This document shows positions 24,821 through 37,771 of a DNA stretch of 64,000 nucleotides, piece after piece. Source of the DNA: Streptosporangium minutum (GTDB taxonomy: Bacteria > Actinomycetota > Actinomycetes > Streptosporangiales > Streptosporangiaceae); contig NZ_NGFP01000010.1 in NCBI RefSeq assembly GCF_002149035.1, forward strand, positions 1 to 64,000. Reading direction: 5' to 3'. The position numbers were made by a program, and so were the translations under genes. The stretch's first letter is position 1, and every line of letters begins with the position of its first letter. Under the pieces are notes generated by a model that searched no databases, was not told the origin of the DNA, and was given only the letters and a program-made list of their open reading frames with translations.

Positions 24821-26551
24821 CTACGGGCGTGACCTGCTTAGGTCCGATGCCGAGGAGGTGGCGGCGGGCGCGGGCAGAACTCCGGTGCATCGGAGCCGGT
24901 CTCGGGCCGCGGCGATGGCTTCGGGGGTGGTGGCGAAGACGTGACTGGCCTCATCGAGACGGGCGATGGTGCCGAGGGCGTGCAGGGGCTGGTGGTGGTC
25001 GGTGCGGATGCCGGAGATGTAGACGGTGATGCCGCGGCGCTGTAGGCGTTCAATGGCATCGCCCAGGACCAGAGCGCCGCTGGCGTCGATGGTGGTGACA
25101 CGGGACATGCGCAAGATCACCACGGAGACGGTGGCGACCTCGGACAGCTCCAGCAGAAAACGGTGGGCCGCGGCGAAGAACAGCGGCCCGTCCAGACGGT
25201 AGGCGACGATGTGCTCGGCCAGCAGGGCGTGTTCTTGCTCGGTGTGGTCGCCGGGCAGATCAGGGTGAATCGGCATCGCGTCCAGGCGGACGTCGCGCGA
25301 AATGGAGCGCAATGCCAGCGCGCCGGCCACGATCAGGCCGAGGATGACGGCCTGGACCAGGTCGAGCGCCAAGGTGGCGATAGCGGTCAACCCCAAGACG
25401 ACGGCGTCGCCGCGGGTGGAGCGGATCATGGCTTTGACCGAGCCGACCTCCACCATCCGCACCGAGGTGGCCAGCAGCACACCGGCCAGCGCGGCCAGTG
25501 GGATCTGGGCGACCAGGTCGGCGGCGGTGAACACGATCACGGCCAAGACACCCGCGTGAGCCAGCGCCGCCAGCCGTGATTGGGCGCCGGAGCGGACATT
25601 GACCGCGGTGCGGGCGATGGCGCCGGTGGCCGGGACGCCGCCGAACAGCGGGACGATGAGGTTGGCCAGGCCCTGGCCGAACAGTTCCCGGTCGGGGTCG
25701 TGCTTGTGGTTGACGCTCATGCCGTCGGCCACGGCGGCCGACAGCAGCGACTCCAACGCGGCCAAGGCCGCGACCGCGACCGCAGGAGCGAGCAGCGAGC
25801 TCAGCACGCTCACATCCACGAAGGCCAGGGAGGGGGAGGGCAAGGTGGCGGGCAGGTCTCCGATGCGCGCTACCGGCAGGTCGACCAACTGCGCCAGCAG
25901 GGTGGCGGCGGCTACGGCGAGCAGGGAGAAGGGTACGGTGGGCCGCCGGCGCGCCCCCAGCAGCATCACCGCGGCCACCGTCAAGGCGATGCCCAGTGCC
26001 CACCACCGCGGCTGGGCGAGGAAGTCCTGCGCGGCCTGCCAGGCCACGGCGAGGACCTTGTCTCCCTCCGGGGTCGGCACGCCCAGGGCGGCCGGGACCT
26101 GCTGTAGGCCGATCACACAGGCGATGCCGATGGTGAAGCCCTCCACCACCGGGGCAGGCACCAGGGCCATGTACTTGCCCGCGCGGCCCAGCGCCAACGC
26201 GATCAACATCAGCCCGGCCAGCACACCGACCATCAGCACACCGGAGGCGCCGTGCGCGTGCATGATCGGAACCAGTACCACCGTCATCGCCCCGGTCGGG
26301 CCGGACACCTGCAAGCCCGAGCCGCCGAACAAGGCCGCCAGTACTCCGGCGACCACCGCGGTGGCCAGGCCCGCTGCGGCGCCCATACCCGAGGAGATGC
26401 CGAACCCCAGCGCCAGCGGCAATGCCACGATCGCCACCGTCAACCCGGCTAGCAGGTCACGGCGGGGACGGCGGCCCATCGCGGCCAACTCCCCGCCCTC
26501 GGGCAGCACGCTGCGCAGGCGGGCCCAGCCCGAGGAGAACAAGGGGGTCAC
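24821..26551 (-). CDS. SulP family anion transporter with STAS domain
   Basis: 576 residues. The membrane part (about 30-430) includes DLLAGLTVAIVALPLALGFG and SGPTGAMTVVLVPI, the SulP/SLC26 hallmarks. The cytoplasmic C-terminal STAS domain (about 455-560) has VVILRMSRVTTIDASGALVL. The transported ion may be sulfate, bicarbonate or another anion and cannot be decided. Last gene of a three-gene operon; the GTG start overlaps the ArsR stop by 4 bases, so transporter output is tied to the regulator. Confidence 0.9.
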   Translation of the reverse strand: MTPLFSSGWARLRSVLPEGGELAAMGRRPRRDLLAGLTVAIVALPLALGFGISSGMGAAAGLATAVVAGVLAALFGGSGLQVSGPTGAMTVVLVPIMHAHGASGVLMVGVLAGLMLIALALGRAGKYMALVPAPVVEGFTIGIACVIGLQQVPAALGVPTPEGDKVLAVAWQAAQDFLAQPRWWALGIALTVAAVMLLGARRRPTVPFSLLAVAAATLLAQLVDLPVARIGDLPATLPSPSLAFVDVSVLSSLLAPAVAVAALAALESLLSAAVADGMSVNHKHDPDRELFGQGLANLIVPLFGGVPATGAIARTAVNVRSGAQSRLAALAHAGVLAVIVFTAADLVAQIPLAALAGVLLATSVRMVEVGSVKAMIRSTRGDAVVLGLTAIATLALDLVQAVILGLIVAGALALRSISRDVRLDAMPIHPDLPGDHTEQEHALLAEHIVAYRLDGPLFFAAAHRFLLELSEVATVSVVILRMSRVTTIDASGALVLGDAIERLQRRGITVYISGIRTDHHQPLHALGTIARLDEASHVFATTPEAIAAARDRLRCTGVLPAPAATSSASDLSRSRP

Positions 26552-26892
26552 GAGGAGCCGGCCTCCGCCTGGATCAGTTCGCTCAGCAACTCGTGCTGCT
26601 CGGTGAGCTTCTGGGTCAGCAACTTGCGGGCCGCGCGCAGCAACTCGGCCACATCCCCGCCGGCCAAGGCGTAGACCACGGTGGAACCGTCGCGGTGCGC
26701 GCCGACCATCCCCGAGCGGCGTAGTACGGCCAGGTGCTGCGACAGTCCCGTCGGCTCGACCTCAATGGCGGCCAGCAGGTCCCGCACCGGCATCGGGCCC
26801 TCCTGCAGCAGCTCCAGCACCCGGATCCGCACGGGGTGGCCCAGCAGTCGAAACAGCTCCGCCTTGGCCTCATACAACGGAACCGACATCAC
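26548..26892 (-). CDS. ArsR family winged-helix regulator
   Basis: 114 residues. An ArsR fold with AELFRLLGHPVRIRVLELLQ, then PTGLSQHLAVLRRSGMVGAH and GSTVVYALAG for the wing. No CxC or obvious metal ligand pair is visible in the recognition helix, so a metal-independent signal (redox or ion status) is more likely. The LLSELIQAE tail is dimer-like. It overlaps both neighbours by 4 bases. The inverted repeat at 27143-27162 is its probable operator. Confidence 0.9.
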   Translation of the reverse strand: MMSVPLYEAKAELFRLLGHPVRIRVLELLQEGPMPVRDLLAAIEVEPTGLSQHLAVLRRSGMVGAHRDGSTVVYALAGGDVAELLRAARKLLTQKLTEQHELLSELIQAEAGSS

Positions 26893-27435: not shown

Positions 27436-28806
27436 TCAGGCCAACTCCTCGATGAAGGCCGCGAGCTGGACGACGTTGCGGCACTCGTGCATCGGGACGA
27501 TCTGCCCGTACGCCGTGGCCACCGAGTCACCGGTGTCCCACTGGCTCACCGGCTCCGGGTTGAGCCAGTAGGCGTGCCGGGCCTCCCGGCTCAGGCGTCT
27601 CAGCGTCTCCAGCGCGGGCGGCTGGTAGTTGGAGCGCGCGTCGCCCAGGATCAGCAGGGACGTCTTCGGCCCGATGGCGTCGCCGTACCGCTCGGCGAAC
27701 CGCTCGAAGGCGTTGCCGTAATTGGTCCGGCCGAACCGCACCATGTCGGCCTCCTTGGCCAGCCGGGTCATCGCCTCCACCACGTCGGCGCCGGGGACGA
27801 AGAACCGGGTGATCTCGTCCACGGTGTCCACGAAGCCGAACGCGCGGACCTTGGTGAACTGCTCGCGCAGCGCGTAGGTGAGCAGCAGCGTGAAGTGGGC
27901 GAAGGAGGCGACCGAGTCGCTGGTGTCGCAGAGGATGACCAGCTCGGGCTTGTGCGGGCGGCGCGGCTTGTTGAAGGTGGTCAGTGGCACCCCGCCGCTG
28001 GACAGCGAGGCCCGCACGGTCCGGCGGAAGTCCAGGCGCCCCCGGTGGCCGAGCCGGTGCTTGACGGTCAGCCGGGCGGCCAGGCGGCGGGCGAGAGGCT
28101 GGACCTCGCGGCGCAGCCTGGACAGGTCGGCCTTCGTCACCCTGAGGAAGTCGAGCTGCTCCAGCGGCGGCCGTACGGCGGAGCGCGCGATCCGCTCGAT
28201 CCCGGAGTCCTCGGCGATCCGGCGGCGCACGTCGGTGGAGACGGCGTCCTCGAAGCGCCTGGTGTTCTCCCCGATCCGCTGCCGGGCCACCTTCTCCGCC
28301 AGGCCGCCGCGCTCCTGGCCGGCCAGCACCTCGGCGAGCAGCCGGGCCATGAGCGTCTCGGGGGACAGCGCCCGCAGCACCGAGTAGGAGAACCAGTTCT
28401 GCCGGCCGGGGCCCGCTGTCTGGCGGCCGAAGCGCTCCACCATCGCCCGGGCGAACTCGTTCATCCCGTCGGCGCCCAGCAGCAGCTCGGCCAGCCGGTC
28501 CCGCAGCTCGGGGACCGCCGCGGTCTCCAGATCCGGCCCGGCGGCGTCCGGGCCGTCCTCGGGGCGCGGGCCGTACAGGCCGGTGGTCGACGCGGGGAAC
28601 CACAGGTCGAAGAGCGTGTCGAAACCCGGCCGGTGCGAGGGCCGCTTGACCAGGGTCGCGGCGTAGGCGGCGCGCAGCGACTCCCGCTCGGCCAGGTCGA
28701 TCACCTGAAGCGCCCGTGCCGCGTCCAGCCCCTCGGCCAGCGAGACCGGCAGCCCGGCCTCACGCAGCGCGTGTACGAAGCCGACATGCCGGTCGAGCAG
28801 GCTCAC
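27436..28806 (-). CDS. VWA domain protein, CoxE-like
   Basis: 456 residues. The C-terminal half is a von Willebrand A domain with the metal-binding DTSDS (about 295-299, DxSxS), then RFGRTNYGNAFERFAERYG and LLILGDARSNYQ. CoxE-like proteins work with MoxR AAA+ ATPases as chaperone-like machines for cofactor insertion or protein assembly. The MoxR gene is directly upstream (64-base gap), so they form one unit. No metalloenzyme target gene is adjacent. A fragment of a related gene tail is at 23277. Confidence 0.88.
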   Translation of the reverse strand: MSLLDRHVGFVHALREAGLPVSLAEGLDAARALQVIDLAERESLRAAYAATLVKRPSHRPGFDTLFDLWFPASTTGLYGPRPEDGPDAAGPDLETAAVPELRDRLAELLLGADGMNEFARAMVERFGRQTAGPGRQNWFSYSVLRALSPETLMARLLAEVLAGQERGGLAEKVARQRIGENTRRFEDAVSTDVRRRIAEDSGIERIARSAVRPPLEQLDFLRVTKADLSRLRREVQPLARRLAARLTVKHRLGHRGRLDFRRTVRASLSSGGVPLTTFNKPRRPHKPELVILCDTSDSVASFAHFTLLLTYALREQFTKVRAFGFVDTVDEITRFFVPGADVVEAMTRLAKEADMVRFGRTNYGNAFERFAERYGDAIGPKTSLLILGDARSNYQPPALETLRRLSREARHAYWLNPEPVSQWDTGDSVATAYGQIVPMHECRNVVQLAAFIEELA

Positions 28807-28870
28807 CTCCCGCCCCCCTGCTTCCCGGTCTGTCCGTTCACAGGGCCTCCCGCCCCTCGGCTCCGGCCGC

Positions 28871-29722
28871 TCACAGCGCCAGTTCCTTGCGTGCCCGGGT
28901 CTGGTCGGAGGCGTGCTTGAGCACGACCCCGAGGGTGGCGCCGACCGTCGCCTCGTCCAGCTCGGTACGGCCCAGCGCGAGCAGCGTGTTGGCCCAGTCG
29001 ACGGTCTCGGCGATGGAGGGCGCCTTCTTCAGCTCAAGGGTGCGCATCGTGGCGACCGTACGGGCGAGCTGCTCGGCCAGGCCCGCCTCGATCGCGGGCA
29101 CCTGCGCCAGCACGATGTCGCGCTCGCGCTCCGGCGACGGATACTCCAGGTGCAGGTAGAGGCAGCGCCGCTTGAGCGCCTCGGACAGCTCGCGGGTCGC
29201 GTTGGAGGTCAGCACCACGTACGGCCTGCGCACGGCCGTGATCGTGCCGAGCTCGGGGATCGTGACCTGGTAGTCGGAGAGGATCTCCAGCAGCAGCCCC
29301 TCCACCTCGACGTCGGCCTTGTCGGTCTCGTCGATCAGCAGGACCGTCGGGGTCTCGGACCTGATCGCCCGCAGCAGGGGCCTTTCGAGCAGGAACTCCT
29401 CGGTGAAGATGTCGTCGTGGGTGGCGTCCCAGCCCTCGCCGTTTCCGGCCTGGATGCGCAGGAGCTGCTTCTTGTAGTTCCACTCGTACAGCGCCCTGGC
29501 CTCGTCGAGCCCCTCGTAGCACTGCAGCCGGATGAGCGAGGCCCCGGTCGCGGCCGCCACGGCCTTGGCGAGCTGGGTCTTGCCCACCCCCGCCGGGCCC
29601 TCGGCGAGCAGCGGCTTGCCCAGCGCGCCGGCCAGGAAGACCGAGGTCGCGATGGAGTCGTCGGCGAGGTAGTCCACGGCGCTGAGCCGCTCCCGGACGT
29701 CGGCGGGCGAGGCGAACCACAT
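28871..29722 (-). CDS. MoxR family AAA+ ATPase
   Basis: About 283 residues. Walker A is GPAGVGKTQLAKAVA (about 41-55), Walker B VLLIDETDKAD (about 127-137), sensor 1 in VVLTSNATREL, and the C-terminal helical lid is present. It acts with the CoxE-like VWA protein downstream. I start at ATG 29722, with GGGAG five bases upstream; GTG 29728 abuts the ribosome binding site and is less likely. Confidence 0.9.
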   Translation of the reverse strand: MWFASPADVRERLSAVDYLADDSIATSVFLAGALGKPLLAEGPAGVGKTQLAKAVAAATGASLIRLQCYEGLDEARALYEWNYKKQLLRIQAGNGEGWDATHDDIFTEEFLLERPLLRAIRSETPTVLLIDETDKADVEVEGLLLEILSDYQVTIPELGTITAVRRPYVVLTSNATRELSEALKRRCLYLHLEYPSPERERDIVLAQVPAIEAGLAEQLARTVATMRTLELKKAPSIAETVDWANTLLALGRTELDEATVGATLGVVLKHASDQTRARKELAL

Positions 29723-29823
29723 GTGCACTCCCAGTACAGGACCGAATGTTGTTCTACCCTAGCGGCTCAAGGTTCTCCGTTTCGAAGCCCTCTGGAAAGT
29801 GCGCTATCCTTCAAGAGCTTCAC

Positions 29824-29959: not shown

Positions 29960-32257
29960 TCAGGAGTCGGGCGAGGCCGGCGCGGACGGCGGGCGCGACT
30001 GGTGCCGGTGCGGCTCGATCCTGGTCGGCAGCCGTATCCCCAGCAGGAGGGCCAGGAATCCGGCGGCGCTCCCGGCGGCGACCAGGGAGAGGGCGGGCCA
30101 GAAGGGGTCCTCCCTCCAGTCGCTCTCCCGGTCCCCGGCATGGGGGACGGCGCCGGACGGTGATGGCAGGGCCGACTCGACCAGCCGGGCGGCCGCCGTC
30201 ACCGGGGAGTCGAAGTCCTCCGATGCCAGCCTGCCGGGGTCGATGGACCGGGCGACCGTGTCCAGCGCGTCGCGCAGCGCGCGGCCACCGGCCTGGTTGC
30301 ACAGAATGAGCAGCGAGCGGCTCGGCATCCCGGCGAGCGCTTCCGATCGGGGATAACCGCTGTCGCGGGCGGCCTCGCGGGGCACGATGGCGGCTTGCAC
30401 CGCCTTGTCCCGGAGAGCGCGCAGTGGGTCGGTCCCCGGGACGGTCTCCAGATGCAGCCAGGGATGGCGCTGCCGCAGGATCTGCTCAGGCCGCTCCCGG
30501 GAGGGCCCCTCCTGGGAGGTGTCCGGCACAGAGATCCGGACCTCCTTGTCCGGGCGTGCGAAGGCCGCCGTCAACTTCTCCGGCTTGATCAGACCGGCGT
30601 CGTAGACCAGGACGTCTCGGTTCGGGACCGGGATGGCGGCGACCGCGGAGAACCCCTGCGCCGCCGGCGGATCCACCGGCCACGTCGGCAGGGCACCCGA
30701 GAGGGCGGGATCCGCCGGAGGGATCTCCACGAGGACCACGGCCGGCTCCGCGACGGGTGCGGTCTCGGCGGGGGCGTCACTCAGCCGGATCTCGGACCGA
30801 TAGCCCGTCCGCTGGACGGCCTTGGCCACGAGGTTCCTGGCGAACGCGTCCTCCTGCCCGGGCGGAGCCTGGACGACGACCGTGCCCGGTTCCGTCCCTG
30901 CCGAGTCCCCCGCGGCGGGGGGATCGCCGCCGGGGGCGAGCAGCATCGCGACGACACCGGTGCCGATCAAGGTGATGGCCAGCGTCGCGAAGGCCACGAC
31001 CATGGTGACCTTGCCGTGCAGGCCCCAGCCGGGCCGGAGCCGCCTTTCGCGGTCGGCCTGTTCCAGCTCGCCGAGCGCGGCCCGCATCGAGGGCGGCACG
31101 GTGTTCGGAGCCGGGCCCGCGGCGGCCGTCGGCCGGTGGGGCACGGTGCCCGGGGCCGGGCCTACGGCGGCCGTCGGCCGGTAGGGCACGGTCACCGCGG
31201 CGGGCGGGACCGCCCCGGCCTCCGGGACACCGCCCCCTCCTCCCGGAACCGGATCACGATCCTCGGAACCGGGCGCGCTGGGGCCGGGCAAGGCCTTTCG
31301 ATGCCCCGCCGCGACGACCGTGTCCGCACCGGGGCCCCCTGCCCGGGGATCCTCCGAGCCCGGCTTCGCCTTCCGCCACACGCCGGTGGCGTCGGGGGAC
31401 AGCAGCCCGGAGCCGGCGTATTCAAGCAGCCGTGCGGCGTTCGGTAGGTCCTCGGGGCCGAACGACAGCGGATCGGTCAGCCCGGCGAGCCCCCGCAGCA
31501 TGTCCTCGAGCTGGACATCGTGCCGGGCCAGCAGGCCCAGGCACACGTTCGCCCGGCCGTCCCGCCAGGTGATCTCCGCTCCGTGGCCCCACCGCACCTC
31601 GTAGGCGTTCTCCGGCGCGTGCCGCGCGAAGGACAGCCTGAGCTTGTGCCGGGCCGTGCTGCTGGTCCAGGTCGCCGCGGTCAACCTCGTCCGCATGCCG
31701 TACGGCAGGAGCGCGGCGACGGTGTCCAGAAAGCGCAACCGTTCGATCATGGGAACCCTGTCCGCGCCCACCACGCAGACGGGCCGCCCGGTCAGCAGCA
31801 GCGCGGCGGCGTACCGCGCGTCCGACCCGGGGACGAGGGCCGTGGGGTCGAACTCCGGCACGCGTACGACCAGGGGAGGGGACGGGGTCGCCGGCAGGCC
31901 CGCGAGGGCGTGGTAGAGGGCCTCATAGGACACCTGATGGACGGCCAGATCCTGGTACGGGACGTAGAACCAGCGGGTGTAGGCGATCTTACGGTTGGTG
32001 GCGTCCCGGTGCCCGGACCACTCCTGGGCCGCGAGCACGATGTGGTGCGACACCTGCTCGCGCTCCCTGGTCGCCGCGACCGCGATCGTCACCTGGGGCA
32101 GATCCGCCGAGAGACCCGTGGCGTACCTGCTCCTGATCTTCTCGAAGACCTCGGGCCCGAGGCGGTCGTCGCTCCAGTCGAGCAGCTCGTAGTCGTCGTG
32201 GGCGCCGGGCCGCTTCCCCTCCAGCGCCCACTCGAATCCGATCTCGTGGTCGGTCAC
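29960..32257 (-). CDS. Membrane-anchored GTPase-associated (GAP1-like) protein with an extracellular solute-binding-like domain
   Basis: 765 residues. The N-terminal cytoplasmic part (about 1-330) contains LLPYGMRTRLTAATWTSS and resembles the GAP1-type partners of bacterial TRAFAC GTPases. A Pro/Ala-rich linker follows. TM1 is at about 415-438. An extracytoplasmic domain (about 440-715) has the layout of periplasmic binding proteins (LLILCNQAGGRALRDALDTV near its end). TM2 is at about 716-741, with a short basic tail. GTG 32257 overlaps the GTPase stop (GTGA). The architecture suggests that the outer domain senses a ligand and the inner domain talks to the GTPase. The GAP assignment is by resemblance, not proof. 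Confidence 0.6.
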   Translation of the reverse strand: MTDHEIGFEWALEGKRPGAHDDYELLDWSDDRLGPEVFEKIRSRYATGLSADLPQVTIAVAATREREQVSHHIVLAAQEWSGHRDATNRKIAYTRWFYVPYQDLAVHQVSYEALYHALAGLPATPSPPLVVRVPEFDPTALVPGSDARYAAALLLTGRPVCVVGADRVPMIERLRFLDTVAALLPYGMRTRLTAATWTSSTARHKLRLSFARHAPENAYEVRWGHGAEITWRDGRANVCLGLLARHDVQLEDMLRGLAGLTDPLSFGPEDLPNAARLLEYAGSGLLSPDATGVWRKAKPGSEDPRAGGPGADTVVAAGHRKALPGPSAPGSEDRDPVPGGGGGVPEAGAVPPAAVTVPYRPTAAVGPAPGTVPHRPTAAAGPAPNTVPPSMRAALGELEQADRERRLRPGWGLHGKVTMVVAFATLAITLIGTGVVAMLLAPGGDPPAAGDSAGTEPGTVVVQAPPGQEDAFARNLVAKAVQRTGYRSEIRLSDAPAETAPVAEPAVVLVEIPPADPALSGALPTWPVDPPAAQGFSAVAAIPVPNRDVLVYDAGLIKPEKLTAAFARPDKEVRISVPDTSQEGPSRERPEQILRQRHPWLHLETVPGTDPLRALRDKAVQAAIVPREAARDSGYPRSEALAGMPSRSLLILCNQAGGRALRDALDTVARSIDPGRLASEDFDSPVTAAARLVESALPSPSGAVPHAGDRESDWREDPFWPALSLVAAGSAAGFLALLLGIRLPTRIEPHRHQSRPPSAPASPDS

Positions 32258-33261
32258 GAGACCACCGTCGGCCGGATCGCGGCGAGCCGCTGCCCCAGCC
32301 AGAGCATGGGCTCCACCACGTTGATCGGATGCAACTGCCCCCGGATGCGTGAATCCTCGTCCGCCTCTCCGGGGACCATGTTCTGGAAGTCGTCCCAGTC
32401 GAAACGCTTCGTGCGCCGGTCCACATAGAAGCCGATCGAGGACGTGGCGAAGAAGCGGATCCGATCCGGGTGGAAGAACTGGTCGAGCGCCTTGAGCACC
32501 ATGTCGGCGGTGCCACTGGCCGACACCTGGCACAGCTCGTGGAACAGCTCCCGCGCGTCCTCGCTGGTCACCCGGGGCAGCCGGTACGGATCGTCGATGT
32601 CCACGGTGAGCAGCCGTCGCTTCTCCGCCGTCTCAAGCACCCGGGGGTCGTCGAACTTGGTGACGCACACGGCGATGTGGTGCGGCAACTTCCCGTCGGT
32701 GAACTCGCCGGCGGCGAGCATCCGCTCGGCGAGCCGGGTGAGCGGGGCGTGCATGTGGTCGAAGGCGTCCCCGAGGGTGAACTCCCTGATCGGGTCGTAG
32801 AGGAAGACGATGCCCCGGCTCCGCTCAAGGTTGTCCAGCAGCTTTTGCAGACGGGGGTCTCCCGAGCCGTCCAGAGCGCTCGGGCCGCCCGCCGGGCCGT
32901 ACCACCCCCCGGGAGCGTCGGTCATGCCGATGCCTATCCGGGCCGGCGGCCCCGGCTTGGCCTTCCTGCTCCAGAAGCCGGGCTTGCGGAGAGCGGGGCC
33001 GAGCAGCGTCCAGTGATAGCGCTCCATGGTCATGTTCGCCTCGGGGAACAGCTTGCCCCGCAACAGGGCGTTGGTCTTCTCGATCAGGTAGTCCGACGAC
33101 GCGGGGTCGGATCCGATGATCTTCCAGTCATCGTCGCTCTTGGTCAGGGCGATGAACAACGCCGCCAGCAGAGTGGTTTTGCCACTGCCGGGAGCGCCCC
33201 ACATGGCGATGTTGTGATCGGGACGTTCCCGGCTCGGATCGGGCTGCATGCGCGTCGTCAC
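32254..33261 (-). CDS. TRAFAC-clade GTPase
   Basis: 335 residues. G1 P-loop AMWGAPGSGKTTLLAALF (about 19-36), G3-like DAPGGW (about 113), G4 TKFD in VCVTKFDDPRVL (about 198). The G4 motif gives guanine specificity. A partner-binding C-terminal part ends with INVVEPMLWLGQRLAAIRP. GTG 33261 overlaps the stop of the preceding gene (GTGA) and is preferred for coupling; ATG 33249 is possible. It is the middle gene of a three-gene minus-strand operon. Confidence 0.75.
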   Translation of the reverse strand: MTTRMQPDPSRERPDHNIAMWGAPGSGKTTLLAALFIALTKSDDDWKIIGSDPASSDYLIEKTNALLRGKLFPEANMTMERYHWTLLGPALRKPGFWSRKAKPGPPARIGIGMTDAPGGWYGPAGGPSALDGSGDPRLQKLLDNLERSRGIVFLYDPIREFTLGDAFDHMHAPLTRLAERMLAAGEFTDGKLPHHIAVCVTKFDDPRVLETAEKRRLLTVDIDDPYRLPRVTSEDARELFHELCQVSASGTADMVLKALDQFFHPDRIRFFATSSIGFYVDRRTKRFDWDDFQNMVPGEADEDSRIRGQLHPINVVEPMLWLGQRLAAIRPTVVS

Positions 33262-34691
33262 TCCGTCTCGTCGAGCAGGGGGAACGGGAGATGGACCGGG
33301 GAGGAGGCGACCAGGCCGAGATCGGCGGCCAGGCCGCGCACGTCCACCGCCTCCAGATGGGCCAGGGCCGCCGCGCCGATCCGGTGCCACACCTGGTGCG
33401 CCTGGTCGGCGGGCTGGTCGCAGATCGCGCCCAGCACCGTGCCCTGCCGCTGCCGCAGGGCGGCGAGCAGCTTCCGCCAGTCGTGCCGGTGGGGGCAGGG
33501 CAGGATCCTGGACTGGTCGGTGCGAGCCGGGTGCGGTGGGAGGCCTCCGACGGTGAGGATGACGGCGGGCGCCGGATCCGCCCGGCCGAGCCGTTCGACC
33601 ACCACGGCGAGCATGTCCTCAAGCTGCGCCGCGTGGGGATGGTACGGATATCCCCTGGCCACCGCTCCCCGTTCCTCCAGCGCGCCGAGTGCGTTCAGAG
33701 CCTCTCCCGCGCCGGCCTCCCAGGCCGCGATCCGCACCGGGAACTCCGGCGCCGACGGGTCGTACGAGTGCGCCGCGTAGGCGAGGAGGGAGACCCGGAG
33801 CAGGCCACCGAGCTCGCCGGAGGCAGAGCTGATCATCTGGCGTGCCCGGCTCAGCCGTTCCGCGACCTGGTCGTCCGCTCCGCAGACCTCCACCGCGCAG
33901 ACGAGGTGCGCCGGGCCGCTGCCCCCCGCCAGCCGATCCGGGAGCGCGGCGACGAGCTGATCCCAGCCCCGAGGGTCGGGCGAGAGCGCGGGCAGGCCGG
34001 TGAACCGTACGCGGCCGGGCCGTACCAGCTCGGCGGTCACCTCATACCGGCCGGGCGCGACCGGGGCGGACTGCACGGACAGCAGCCGCGGCTTCGGACC
34101 CTGCCAGGTGACCACGGCGAACGCGGTGCCGTGCGCGCCCGCGGCTTCGCAGCGGAGGGCGACCCGGGTCCGGGCCCCCGGACGGGAGCCGAGGGGGAAG
34201 AGCTGCCTGCTGGTCAGCCGAGGTCGGCTGGTATCCGAGTCGACGAGGACGACGATCAGCTCGTACGACCTGGTCAGCGGGTCGTCGGCGATGACCTCCC
34301 GGATCAGTGCGGCGATCGGGGCTTCGGCTCGCAGCACCTGCGCGGCGGGATGTGCCGCGCGCAGCCAGGCGAGGGCCTGCTCGACCTGCGGATCAGCGGA
34401 GGACGCGGCTACGAGCATCACGTCGGCGGTGGACGAGGCGGCGCGGGCCATGCGTAGCACGGCCTCCCGGGTCTCGGCCGGATGGGTGCCCCACCCGCGT
34501 TCGCCCGCGAGGCCCGGCCAGGTCGCCGACCAGCTCCGGCCGCGGGGGCGGCCGTTGTCGTCCCGGTGGAGCAGGAACGTGGTGACGCCGTCGGCGGCGA
34601 TCTCCACCAGGGTGAGGCGATCGGTGTCGGCGAGGTCGGCCAGGGCCTGGGCGATCGCCTTCCTGCTCAGATCCCTGTCGGGCTCCGGCAC
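33258..34691 (-). CDS. Uncharacterised partner protein of the GTPase operon
   Basis: 477 residues, soluble, no signal or membrane segment. Alpha/beta patterns recur: LIVVLVDSDTSRPRLTSRQL near residue 155 (a DxDxS that weakly recalls a VWA metal site), AHLVCAVEVCGADDQVAERL, and AVILTVGGLPPHPARTDQSR. The last part (HRHDWRKLLAALRQRQGTV..ICDQPAD) again looks Rossmann-like. It could be a VWA-type adaptor. GGAGG is 7 bases before GTG 34691. First gene of the operon, divergent from the DUF4407/kinase genes. Confidence 0.6.
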   Translation of the reverse strand: MPEPDRDLSRKAIAQALADLADTDRLTLVEIAADGVTTFLLHRDDNGRPRGRSWSATWPGLAGERGWGTHPAETREAVLRMARAASSTADVMLVAASSADPQVEQALAWLRAAHPAAQVLRAEAPIAALIREVIADDPLTRSYELIVVLVDSDTSRPRLTSRQLFPLGSRPGARTRVALRCEAAGAHGTAFAVVTWQGPKPRLLSVQSAPVAPGRYEVTAELVRPGRVRFTGLPALSPDPRGWDQLVAALPDRLAGGSGPAHLVCAVEVCGADDQVAERLSRARQMISSASGELGGLLRVSLLAYAAHSYDPSAPEFPVRIAAWEAGAGEALNALGALEERGAVARGYPYHPHAAQLEDMLAVVVERLGRADPAPAVILTVGGLPPHPARTDQSRILPCPHRHDWRKLLAALRQRQGTVLGAICDQPADQAHQVWHRIGAAALAHLEAVDVRGLAADLGLVASSPVHLPFPLLDETE

Positions 34692-34927
34692 GAGGAGTCC
34701 TCCATAGATATGTCGTATTAGCTGCGCTGCGTCCCTGGTGTCCCGATTGGTCGGCGTATATAACGTTAGGAGGTGCCGCTGGGGCGAGGTGCTGTATCGG
34801 GATTCCTCGATGAAATTCTATCGGGTATCTGTAAATACGATATTGGGCGCCTATGATATCCCCTCCGGGGAGCCGACGCCGTTCCAATCGGTGCCGACGC
34901 GATGAGACTCCCTTTGCGAGGAGGAGT

Positions 34928-36328
34928 ATGAGACGTTTCCTGAGCGCGCTGTCCGGGGTTTTGGTCGCGCTGTCAGGAGCGCGACCCGAGGTTCTCCGGA
35001 CGTGCCCGACCGAACGCGGCAAATTCGAGGGCATCGGGGGCGCCGTTCTCACCACGAGCGTGCTCGCCTTCGTCTCCATGACGTTCGCCCTCAACAGCAC
35101 GCTCAGCGTCAACATCGTCCTCGCCGTCGCCGCCGCTCTGCTGTGGGGCCTGGCGATCCTCAGCCTTGACCGGTGGCTCGTCTCCACGATCAGGGCTGAC
35201 GCGCCGAACCGCTGGGCGCTGGCCGCGCCGCGCGTCCTCGTCGCCGTCGTGCTCGGCCTGGTGATCTCCACTCCTCTGGTGCTGCAGGTTTTCAAGGCCG
35301 AGATCGACACCCAGATCACCGAGATGAAACAGCGGCGCGGTGACGCCTTCGCCGTACAGCAGGAGCAGGGCGCGGTGGGAAAGAGCGTCAGCCAGCTCCG
35401 CAAGGAGGTGGCCGATCTGCGGCAGGTGATTTCCTCCGGCGGCGACGTTCCCCTTGACATAGAACAGGACTCGAAGATAAAGGCGCTGTCCGCCCAGCGC
35501 GCCGATGAGCAGAAGCGAGCGGACAAACACTACAAAGAGTGGCAGTGCCAGCTCTATGGTGGTCCAAACTGCATCAAAAAGGGCAATGGTCCACTCGCTC
35601 AGGAGAGCCGGCGTGCGTACGAAAAAGACAAGGGGCGCATCGAGCTGCTCACCCGGCAGATAGAGGACCGAAAGCGGGAGTTGAACGCGACCGGGGAACA
35701 GGCCAAGGGGACACGGCTCGCCGCCGCGGAGGAGGCCCTGCCCAAGGCCCAGCGCCAGCTCGACGCCGCGGTCGAGCAGCAGGCCCGGATCCAGCGGTCC
35801 TTCGACGAGGACAACCTGGCCACCGACGGGCTGCTCATCCGGCTCCGGGCGCTCAACGAGCTGACCGGCAAGGACATCACCCTCAGCATGGCCCGGCTGC
35901 TGCTGTTCGCGTTGTTCCTGCTCATCGAATGTCTGCCGGTCGCGGTGAAGCTCATGCAGCGGCCCGGCATCTATGAGAAGGCGCTCGCGCTCGCCGAGCG
36001 CCAGGAGCTGGACGGCATGCGCGATGAGTTCGGTGTTCGCGCCGGGTCCCGGTCCCGGCCGGCGGAGCCCGGCGGGTCGGACAGCGTCTGGAGCATCTGG
36101 TCGCCCCGGGAGGACACCTCGCGACGGCCCGGCGCCGCCTTCGGGGAGGAGACGCGGCCACCCCGAGGACCGAACGGCACCCAGGCCGAGTCGGCTGACC
36201 CCGGCTACGAGTACGGGCCCATGGAAGACCAGGCCCTGCGTGGCATGACGGACACCCGCATCATGCGGAGACCGGGACCGGGTGCGGAGCGCTCGGGCGG
36301 GATCGAACTGCTCCCCGACGAGGACTGA
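34928..36328 (+). CDS. DUF4407 coiled-coil membrane protein
   Basis: 466 residues. Three membrane segments near the start (about 35-57, 60-80, 97-118), a long coiled coil (about 120-310, rich in Glu, Lys and Gln), and a fourth membrane segment (about 321-341, LLLFALFLLIECLPVAVKLM). After these comes a Pro/Arg-rich cytoplasmic tail (about 370-466). The coil would project outward between TM3 and TM4. ATG 34928 has GAGGAGGAG right before it. Ten bases separate it from the kinase gene, so its tail, which is rich in Ser and Thr, is a plausible kinase substrate. Confidence 0.8.
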   Translation: MRRFLSALSGVLVALSGARPEVLRTCPTERGKFEGIGGAVLTTSVLAFVSMTFALNSTLSVNIVLAVAAALLWGLAILSLDRWLVSTIRADAPNRWALAAPRVLVAVVLGLVISTPLVLQVFKAEIDTQITEMKQRRGDAFAVQQEQGAVGKSVSQLRKEVADLRQVISSGGDVPLDIEQDSKIKALSAQRADEQKRADKHYKEWQCQLYGGPNCIKKGNGPLAQESRRAYEKDKGRIELLTRQIEDRKRELNATGEQAKGTRLAAAEEALPKAQRQLDAAVEQQARIQRSFDEDNLATDGLLIRLRALNELTGKDITLSMARLLLFALFLLIECLPVAVKLMQRPGIYEKALALAERQELDGMRDEFGVRAGSRSRPAEPGGSDSVWSIWSPREDTSRRPGAAFGEETRPPRGPNGTQAESADPGYEYGPMEDQALRGMTDTRIMRRPGPGAERSGGIELLPDED

Positions 36329-36337
36329 GGCCACCGG

Positions 36338-37771
36338 ATGACGGCACGAATCGTCCAAGGCCGGTACGAGCTGAGGTCCCGGCTCGGCAGGGGCGGCATG
36401 GGCACGGTGTGGCTCGCCTGGGACCGGACGCTGCGGCGATCCGTCGCGCTCAAAGAGGTCGTGCTGGCGCCGTACGGCGAGGACATGGCCGTACGGCGGA
36501 AGAGGGCGCTGAGCGAAGCGCGTGCCGCCGCGCGGATCCGGCATCCGGCGGTCGTCGACATCTACGACGCCTTCATGGACGACGGATCGCCGTGGATCGT
36601 CATGGAGTACATCGAGGGCACGTCGCTGGACCGCCGGATCGAGCGGCAGACCCTCTCCCGGCGGCAGGTCCTCTCCGAGCGGGAGATCACCCGGGTGGGA
36701 CGTGAGGTGCTGGACGGACTGGCCGCCGTGCACGACGCGCAGGTGCTGCACCGGGACGTCAAACCGGCCAACATCATCGTTGATCCCGACGACCGGGTCT
36801 TCCTGGTCGACTTCGGTATCGCGCGGATCTCCGGGGAGAGCGGCCTCACGTCGGCCAACATGCTGCTCGGAACCATCGAGTTCATGGCGCCGGAACGGAT
36901 CGACGGGCACGTGGTGGGGCCGGCGTCGGACTTGTGGTCGCTGGGAGTGACGCTGTTCTGCGCGCTGGAGGGCTACTCGCCGTTCCTCCGTGACAGCCCG
37001 CTCGAAACGGTGCGGGCGGTCACCGCCGGCCGGCCTCCGCGCTTCCGGCGACCGGGTCCGCTCGCCGACGCGATCGCCGGCCTGCTCGTCACCGCCCCCG
37101 CTCGGCGGATGGGGGCGGCCGAGCTGGGGCGGCGGCTGGACACGATCCTCGCGGGCCCGGCGCCGCGGCCCCATGAACGGCAGGAGCCGGAGCGGCGCAC
37201 CGGCCCGGGAACGGGCCAGGAGGCACGGCGCGGACACGGTGCGCACGGCTCGGGGCCGGTCCGGGATCCGGCCCGGGCGGGGGAAGGCCGCGACGGCGGA
37301 AGCCCGCTGCTCGATCGGCCCCGCCAGGAGGCCGCCACCCTGCTCGGCTCGATGGAGCCGAAGGCCGCCGGGCGGCTCCTGGGCGGCGCGGCGGAAGCGT
37401 CGGGCACGGCAGCCGAGGTGCTGGCGCTGCTGCCGCCGCCGCGAGCCGCGCGGGTGATCGACCACATGCCCCCGCATCGGGCGGCCAGGCTGGTGGGCGC
37501 GATGCCCCCCAGCCGGAGCGCGAGCATCCTGGCGCACACGGATGACCGTGTCACGGCCGCTGTCCTCGGCGCGCTCGGCATCGTCCCCGCCGCGGTCCGC
37601 CTGGTGGAGGCGATGACGGTGCGGCGCGCCTGCCGGGTGCTCGGATACGTGCCGCCCGCCGTCGTCGCGGAACTGCTGTCCGCGACCTCGGACGGCCGTG
37701 CCGATCGGCTCCTCGACGGGCTCAGCCGCGCCGTACGCGACGAGATCGCCCGCCTGACCGGCGGAGCGTGA
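36338..37771 (+). CDS. Serine/threonine protein kinase with MgtE-N-like C-terminal repeats
   Basis: 477 residues. A Hanks-type kinase (about 7-260): glycine loop LGRGGMGTVW, VALKE lysine, VLHRDVKPANIIV (catalytic loop, about 137-149), DFGIAR, and a GTIEFMAPE activation end. The linker is disordered and rich in Gly, Arg and Glu (about 265-325). The C-terminus (about 330-475) is built of repeated short helices, with LGSMEPKAAGRLLGG, IDHMPPHRAARLVGAMPPSR and LGYVPPAVVAELLSA, like the superhelical N-domain of MgtE. No membrane segment or PASTA repeat is present. It probably reports to, or acts on, the DUF4407 membrane protein just upstream. Confidence 0.88.
   Translation: MTARIVQGRYELRSRLGRGGMGTVWLAWDRTLRRSVALKEVVLAPYGEDMAVRRKRALSEARAAARIRHPAVVDIYDAFMDDGSPWIVMEYIEGTSLDRRIERQTLSRRQVLSEREITRVGREVLDGLAAVHDAQVLHRDVKPANIIVDPDDRVFLVDFGIARISGESGLTSANMLLGTIEFMAPERIDGHVVGPASDLWSLGVTLFCALEGYSPFLRDSPLETVRAVTAGRPPRFRRPGPLADAIAGLLVTAPARRMGAAELGRRLDTILAGPAPRPHERQEPERRTGPGTGQEARRGHGAHGSGPVRDPARAGEGRDGGSPLLDRPRQEAATLLGSMEPKAAGRLLGGAAEASGTAAEVLALLPPPRAARVIDHMPPHRAARLVGAMPPSRSASILAHTDDRVTAAVLGALGIVPAAVRLVEAMTVRRACRVLGYVPPAVVAELLSATSDGRADRLLDGLSRAVRDEIARLTGGA

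Follow-up and report, generated by a model that had tools for sequence, protein, structure and literature searches.

A conserved divergent locus of Streptosporangium minutum encoding a DO-GTPase2-like protein, a probable GAP1-related membrane protein, a DUF4407 protein and a Ser/Thr kinase

DO-GTPase/GAP1-N2 systems, with one theme in which a kinase accompanies PP2C and vWA proteins, were described computationally by Kaur, Burroughs, Iyer and Aravind (2020, eLife 9:e52696, PMC7159879). No experimental test of GAP1/DO-GTPase systems was found in the open literature searched, and they have so far been described by computation only. To this class we compare a locus of five genes, named A to E, located at positions 29960-37771 of a 64-kb stretch (the window; contig NZ_NGFP01000010.1, positions 1 to 64,000) of the 9.58-Mb, 548-contig genome of the actinobacterium Streptosporangium minutum. 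The gene set is conserved in other actinobacteria, and its products may form a membrane-sited GTPase switch from a divergent DO-GTPase/GAP1 branch.

Two divergent arms conserved together

The five open reading frames of a preliminary description of this DNA were confirmed at their coordinates, arranged in two divergent units: A, B and C on the minus strand and D and E on the plus strand, both arms diverging from one intergenic region (Table 1). As read directly from the sequence, GTGA overlaps link A to B and B to C, the start of D is preceded by GAGGAGG, and 9 nt separate D from E. The 236-bp A-D intergenic region has a Shine-Dalgarno-like sequence at either end and contains a block, GGG.TATCATAGGCGCCCA (A-coding strand), that is kept in Streptosporangium and Microtetraspora. 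No toxin or nuclease was recognisable in the five core genes.

The two arms, treated as one system in the preliminary description, do co-occur in other genomes. Some 40 loci of Streptosporangiales and Actinomadura show the order E< D< / A> B> C>, in some cases with a second C (type I), and it persists even where protein identity has fallen to about 40%. A scan of named genomes gave 79 loci, partly from the same species, in Streptosporangiaceae, Actinomadura, Frankia, Nocardia, Lentzea, Actinoplanes and others. B was present in 15 of 80 relatives; DUF4407, the family of D, occurred in 14 of these 15 genomes vs nine of the 65 B-negative ones (Fisher p 7e-9, a value that ignores the kinship of the genomes), and D lay near B in 14 of the 15. 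Since the divergent order is conserved and D and B co-occur across genomes, the A-B-C and D-E arms are very probably functionally linked.

In a second arrangement (type II, e.g. in Actinomadura, Lentzea and Nocardia) A-B-C lies behind a radical-SAM gene, a gene of about 460 aa and a SpoVK/CbbX-like AAA gene; D is often near, but the kinase is absent there. In the type II operons L032:1839-15081 and L122-L158, A has an N-terminal zinc-ribbon-like part, two further genes follow C, and DUF4407 is often found nearby.

Table 1. Features of the five-gene locus (positions in the window)
Feature	Coordinates	Strand	Description
Gene A	33258..34691	-	477 aa, soluble; N-terminal alpha/beta part (Hsp70-lobe-like), beta-sandwich ~143-231, vWA-like ~260-470 without standard MIDAS (metal ion-dependent adhesion site)
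Gene B	32254..33261	-	335 aa; GTG start at 33261, internal ATG at 33249; divergent DO-GTPase2-like GTPase; GAPGSGKTT, DAPGG, DPIRE, TKFD
Gene C	29960..32257	-	765 aa; cytoplasmic GAP1-like part 1-285, disordered linker, first transmembrane segment 419-437, ectodomain with class II solute-binding fold 459-700, second transmembrane segment 723-741
Intergenic region between arms	34692..34927		236 bp; conserved block; at each end a ribosome-binding-like sequence, one for A and one for D
Gene D	34928..36328	+	DUF4407, 466 aa; four predicted transmembrane segments, coiled coil with CQLYGGxxC (predicted outside), cytoplasmic tail with EDxALRxM-x-DxR, acidic terminus
Gene E	36338..37771	+	477 aa, Ser/Thr kinase; VALK, HRDVKPAN, DFGIA; MgtE_N/FliG-like helical tail

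The GTPase and its A and C partners

B scored 25.7 bits against Pfam DO-GTPase2, just below the cut-off of 27, and profile comparison by hhalign aligned it with canonical DO-GTPase2 over the full length (E 1.4e-18, 267 columns). The G1, G3-like and G4 motifs that had been read in window B (GAPGSGKTT, DAPGG and TKFD) proved to be conserved throughout the B family, which retains GxPxSGKT and DxPGG, carries TKFD in 95 of 103 sequences and has an invariant DPxRE. In a tree with four canonical sequences the B family formed its own clade (100/100), with long branches from canonical DO-GTPase2; window B is 93% identical to B of Streptosporangium canum. Because of this separate clade, and because the Walker B glutamate is usually a glycine, the B sequence is that of a divergent relative of DO-GTPase2 and not of a standard member. 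Another DO-GTPase2 gene, this one scoring above the Pfam cut-off, lies on a short contig (G000:C362:3125-3568, L077) of the window's own genome, in which no GAP1-N2 was found. Elsewhere (L113:3816-7115) a single protein of 1099 aa has a kinase domain fused to a DO-GTPase2-like domain.

C is encoded directly downstream of B, the position that GAP1 proteins of the GAP1-N2 type take relative to the DO-GTPase, and the 4-nt B/C overlap is retained in 31 of 44 loci. Its N-terminal ~285 residues are conserved across all relatives. Window C matched Pfam GAP1-M with 14.6 bits, below the cut-off of 24, and the same family was matched by 30 of 48 type I and 5 of 25 type II relatives (best E 4.9e-4), the runner-up Pfam family appearing in only 3 of 48 and 1 of 25, respectively. 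GAP1-N2, GAP1-M and GAP1-C were absent from C above the curated cut-offs, and GAP1-M alone appeared below them; few members turned up when GAP1-N2 was searched for across the phylum. The similarity of this 765-residue protein to a GTPase-associated family, suggested in the preliminary description, is thus upheld by a weak GAP1-M signal, and remote homology of C to GAP1 is probable on this sequence evidence, short of proof.

In window C two transmembrane segments flank a domain of about 265 aa, and the topology obeys the positive-inside rule. AlphaFold2 modelled residues 1-285 with confidence, and likewise the greater part of 459-700 (predicted local distance difference test, pLDDT, above 90 in most of the latter). 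The modelled ectodomain has a two-lobed class II solute-binding fold (Foldseek: ProX/OpuAC/EgtU, E 2e-6, prob 1.00), in agreement with the two-helix protein with an extracytoplasmic binding-protein-like domain that had been proposed. This form of C constitutes one clade (100/99) and was gained once (one change); the clade comprises the Streptosporangium group of the window, Microtetraspora, Microbispora, Sphaerimonospora and Herbidospora. In one Sphaerimonospora copy (L092) there are two transmembrane segments with hardly any outer part. Outside the clade C has mostly a single C-terminal transmembrane segment (tail anchor) or is soluble. The ectodomain diverges about twice as fast as the cytoplasmic part (e.g. 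29% vs 59% identity to Microbispora), and its R647 is invariant among 23 sequences. The earlier idea of a GTPase gated from outside is anatomically plausible, but the ectodomain is found in one clade only and the sister systems are tail-anchored or soluble, so that gating of this kind is not ancestral.

No Pfam family matched A. In its structural model (mean pLDDT 88) an alpha/beta part at the N-terminus is followed by a beta-sandwich and then by a C-terminal half of Rossmann-like fold, and Foldseek matched the model to DnaK-type Hsp70 and vWA structures (E 1e-7 to 1e-5). The vWA fold was matched with TMt 0.5-0.6 in Foldseek and E 4e-4 in hhalign; the MIDAS aspartates are not conserved in this vWA-like domain, E replacing the first Asp and VGxRPPHP standing at strand 4. 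The Hsp70 structures were matched at E 1e-7 with low TM-scores, and profile comparison by hhalign was weak (E 0.08-0.18). Because of the low TM-scores and the weak profile comparison, the Hsp70-like part of the A model is taken as a fold resemblance only, that is, as a lead. What makes the resemblance noteworthy is that the known GAP1-N2 systems encode Hsp70 and vWA in separate genes (PMC7159879). Among sequences in the PDB, no convincing relatives of A or C were found.

The DUF4407 protein, its kinase and the genomic setting

Both plus-strand genes were what the preliminary description had taken them to be. D matched Pfam DUF4407 with 272 bits (cut-off 31.3), and E matched Pkinase with 166 bits and MgtE_N with 44 bits. 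D has four predicted transmembrane segments, a coiled coil and a cytoplasmic tail, and the kinase-linked copies have a Cys pair, mostly CQLYGGxxC. The kinase motifs of E are intact in most copies, and MgtE_N is present in 34 of 34. The motif EDxxLRxM-x-DxR was found in the tail of 38 of 44 kinase-linked D proteins vs none of 11 D proteins without kinase (0.25% of shuffled tails), and from this sequence correlation we read it as a putative docking site for E.

In GTPase-less genomes, and as a second copy in some GTPase-bearing ones, DUF4407 is the last gene of an unrelated, conserved operon with an nSTAND3-type NTPase and two proteins of no assigned family. This is what an output module common to different switches would show, and it suggests that DUF4407 may serve two kinds of NTPase switch systems. 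The nSTAND3 operon (L200-L209, e.g. L202:2040-7302) encodes a protein of about 245 aa, an nSTAND3-type NTPase of about 700 aa, a protein of about 340 aa and DUF4407, and is possibly an undescribed four-gene system; its ~245-aa protein shows cyclase-like motifs by eye and has no Pfam match.

Directly downstream of C, at 27436-29728 of the window, lies a MoxR and CoxE-type vWA pair whose conservation in the genus does not depend on the GTPase system. It flanks the locus in the seven genomes of the window's group and persists in four genomes without the GTPase. As these four genomes lack the locus and retain the pair, MoxR and CoxE are neighbours and not a sixth and seventh component. At 24821-26892, by sequence inspection, the gene of an ArsR-type regulator overlaps that of a SulP-type transporter bearing a STAS domain.

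The system is patchily distributed in the genus, being present in 10 of 16. Besides the seven genomes of the window's group, three Streptosporangium genomes carry a type I locus that is more distant and lies elsewhere. Two of these three distant loci adjoin a second module in which an A-B fusion protein stands with an AAA_lid protein and an ATPase of the MoxR/chelatase type. In the one scanned with Pfam, L028:12048-18758, there is a trypsin-A-GTPase fusion with an adjacent CHAT protease, an AAA_lid_2 protein and a MoxR/chelatase-type ATPase beside a type I locus, and L027:1048-7872 has the same gene pattern, also beside a type I locus. A-containing genes flank several Actinomadura type I loci (L114, L144 and L152, by gene pattern). 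At L121:14780-20891, at an Actinomadura type I locus, a large A-containing protein without Pfam match is found together with an AAA_5 ATPase and a weak VMAP-M0 protein.

Proposed mechanism and relation to known systems

We propose, with a probability of roughly 0.45, that the locus encodes a membrane-sited GTPase switch of a divergent DO-GTPase/GAP1 branch, in which C holds B and reads a ligand, A couples, D is the output and the kinase E is docked on D. B would be the nucleotide switch, and C, translated together with it, would keep it at the membrane through the GAP1-like cytoplasmic domain. In the clade of the window C would sense an external ligand through its solute-binding-type ectodomain. 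A, with its Hsp70-like/beta-sandwich and vWA-like parts, might act as a cytoplasmic scaffold or client-peptide binder coupling B to the output. D would be the membrane output or effector, with a cytoplasmic tail docking E, and E may phosphorylate D or other parts and so set a threshold. The proteins would form a complex in which the signal runs from C to D, and the signal sensed is most likely of envelope or extracellular origin, with phage, competitors and development as candidate sources. A bolder version, which we consider doubtful, is that of an undescribed ligand-gated G-protein/kinase receptor complex, in which an external solute-binding-type receptor directly gates a GTPase switch that acts via a DUF4407 effector docked by a dedicated Ser/Thr kinase.

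Several observations weigh against the membrane-sited switch. DO-GTPases carry a conserved glutamate in the Walker B motif, according to Kaur et al. (2020, PMC7159879), and at this position, which we matched to their description from the alignment, the B family has mostly DxxGG instead of DxxGE, only a minority having GE. Comparison of C with canonical GAP1 (42 regional sequences) by hhalign scored 19.0, with shuffled columns reaching 19.3, and pointed to the same spot as the GAP1-M match (residues 158-203 of window C); a hidden Markov model built from the local GAP1 proteins did not recover C. The structural matches of A have low TM-scores (0.16-0.6). The motif in the D tail may follow phylogeny, that is, sequence relatedness, rather than the kinase. 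Finally, the aromatic cage of betaine-binding pockets is not conserved in the 23 ectodomain sequences of C, and for this reason the ectodomain may bind a ligand other than the betaine type, or none.

The alternative that survives best, although we think it unlikely, is an anti-invader system of the abortive-infection type, in which the GTPase-GAP1 switch would sense infection, DUF4407 would be a membrane-damaging effector and the solute-binding domain would occupy a variable effector position instead of sensing a ligand. Kaur et al. (2020, PMC7159879) propose the class as conflict systems with extracellular and transmembrane parts and report that in EACC1, a different system of this kind, PBP domains stand where the effector does. 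The sharing of DUF4407 with nSTAND3 operons, the trypsin-A-B fusions, CHAT, MoxR and weak VMAP-M0 protein adjoining sister loci and the patchy presence in the genus all agree with this view. On the other hand, no effector is swapped in the ~40 loci, whose architecture is constant, the locus occupies a single chromosomal site beside MoxR-CoxE in the clade of the window, and PADLOC matched the locus genes only through generic kinase models, its hits to E being rejected on that ground. A conflict function fits the company of these proteins, and signalling fits their constancy.

That constancy, together with the external solute-binding fold and the kinase, would also suit a regulator of development or specialised metabolism unlinked to invaders and working like conservons, the actinobacterial G-protein operons with membrane sensor and accessory proteins that control metabolism during interspecies contact (PMC8510531). 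However, the sensor histidine kinase, roadblock, DUF742 and Ras-like GTPase of conservons were all missing from A-E in Pfam and NCBIfam scans, the locus contains no regulator, and the DUF4407-nSTAND and MoxR/CHAT associations indicate a conflict network; we regard this explanation as rather improbable. That two unrelated operons merely share a promoter region, a view for which the opposite strands of the arms and the nine genomes with D and without B could be cited, is largely refuted and very improbable, chance neighbourhood being ruled out by a divergent order held in ~40 loci across genera, by D lying near B in nearly all B-positive genomes and by the linkage of D also in type II loci that lack the kinase.

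According to the preliminary description, a GTPase gated from outside and paired with a Ser/Thr kinase is not known to be characterised. The class and its kinase theme are already in Kaur et al. (2020, PMC7159879), and three features look new relative to that paper: DUF4407 as a partner, protein A, and a GAP1-like protein that bears a solute-binding ectodomain. DUF4407 is not mentioned in its main text, and the branch may be listed individually in its supplementary tables. The small and constant set of five genes, the clear outside domain, which is open to a ligand search, and the pairing of kinase and tail motif offer a practical entry to what such GTPase systems sense.

Like the conservons (cvn) of Streptomyces, the locus is actinobacterial and would link a GTPase switch with a sensor in the membrane, but the Ras-like CvnD, the roadblock CvnB and the histidine-kinase-like CvnA have no counterpart in A-E by the same scans. 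The C ectodomain shares the fold of class II solute-binding proteins such as ProX, OpuAC and EgtU; unlike these it lies between two transmembrane helices on a GAP1-like protein, lacks a conserved aromatic cage and is accompanied in the unit by neither a permease nor an ABC ATPase. With the MoxR-vWA (VMAP/CoxDE) ternary systems the locus shares the vWA-type fold of A, and A fusions of sister loci adjoin MoxR-type ATPases and a VMAP-M0-like protein; the five-gene unit itself has no MoxR, and genomes lacking the unit still have the neighbouring MoxR-CoxE pair. The closest likeness is to the DO-GTPase2/GAP1-N2 systems as described in PMC7159879: a TRAFAC GTPase followed directly by a GAP1-like gene, transmembrane and extracellular domains on GAP1, Hsp70 and vWA themes, and a kinase-bearing theme in actinobacteria. 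Compared with that kinase theme, E is predicted from its motifs to be active, PP2C is absent from the unit and a vWA-like fold occurs only inside A. The locus differs further in its separate GTPase clade, mostly without the DxxGE glutamate, in its sub-threshold GAP1 and in having no tubulin, GrpE or FNIII protein (no Pfam match to FNIII repeats in A-E), and it adds a DUF4407 partner and a solute-binding ectodomain on C.

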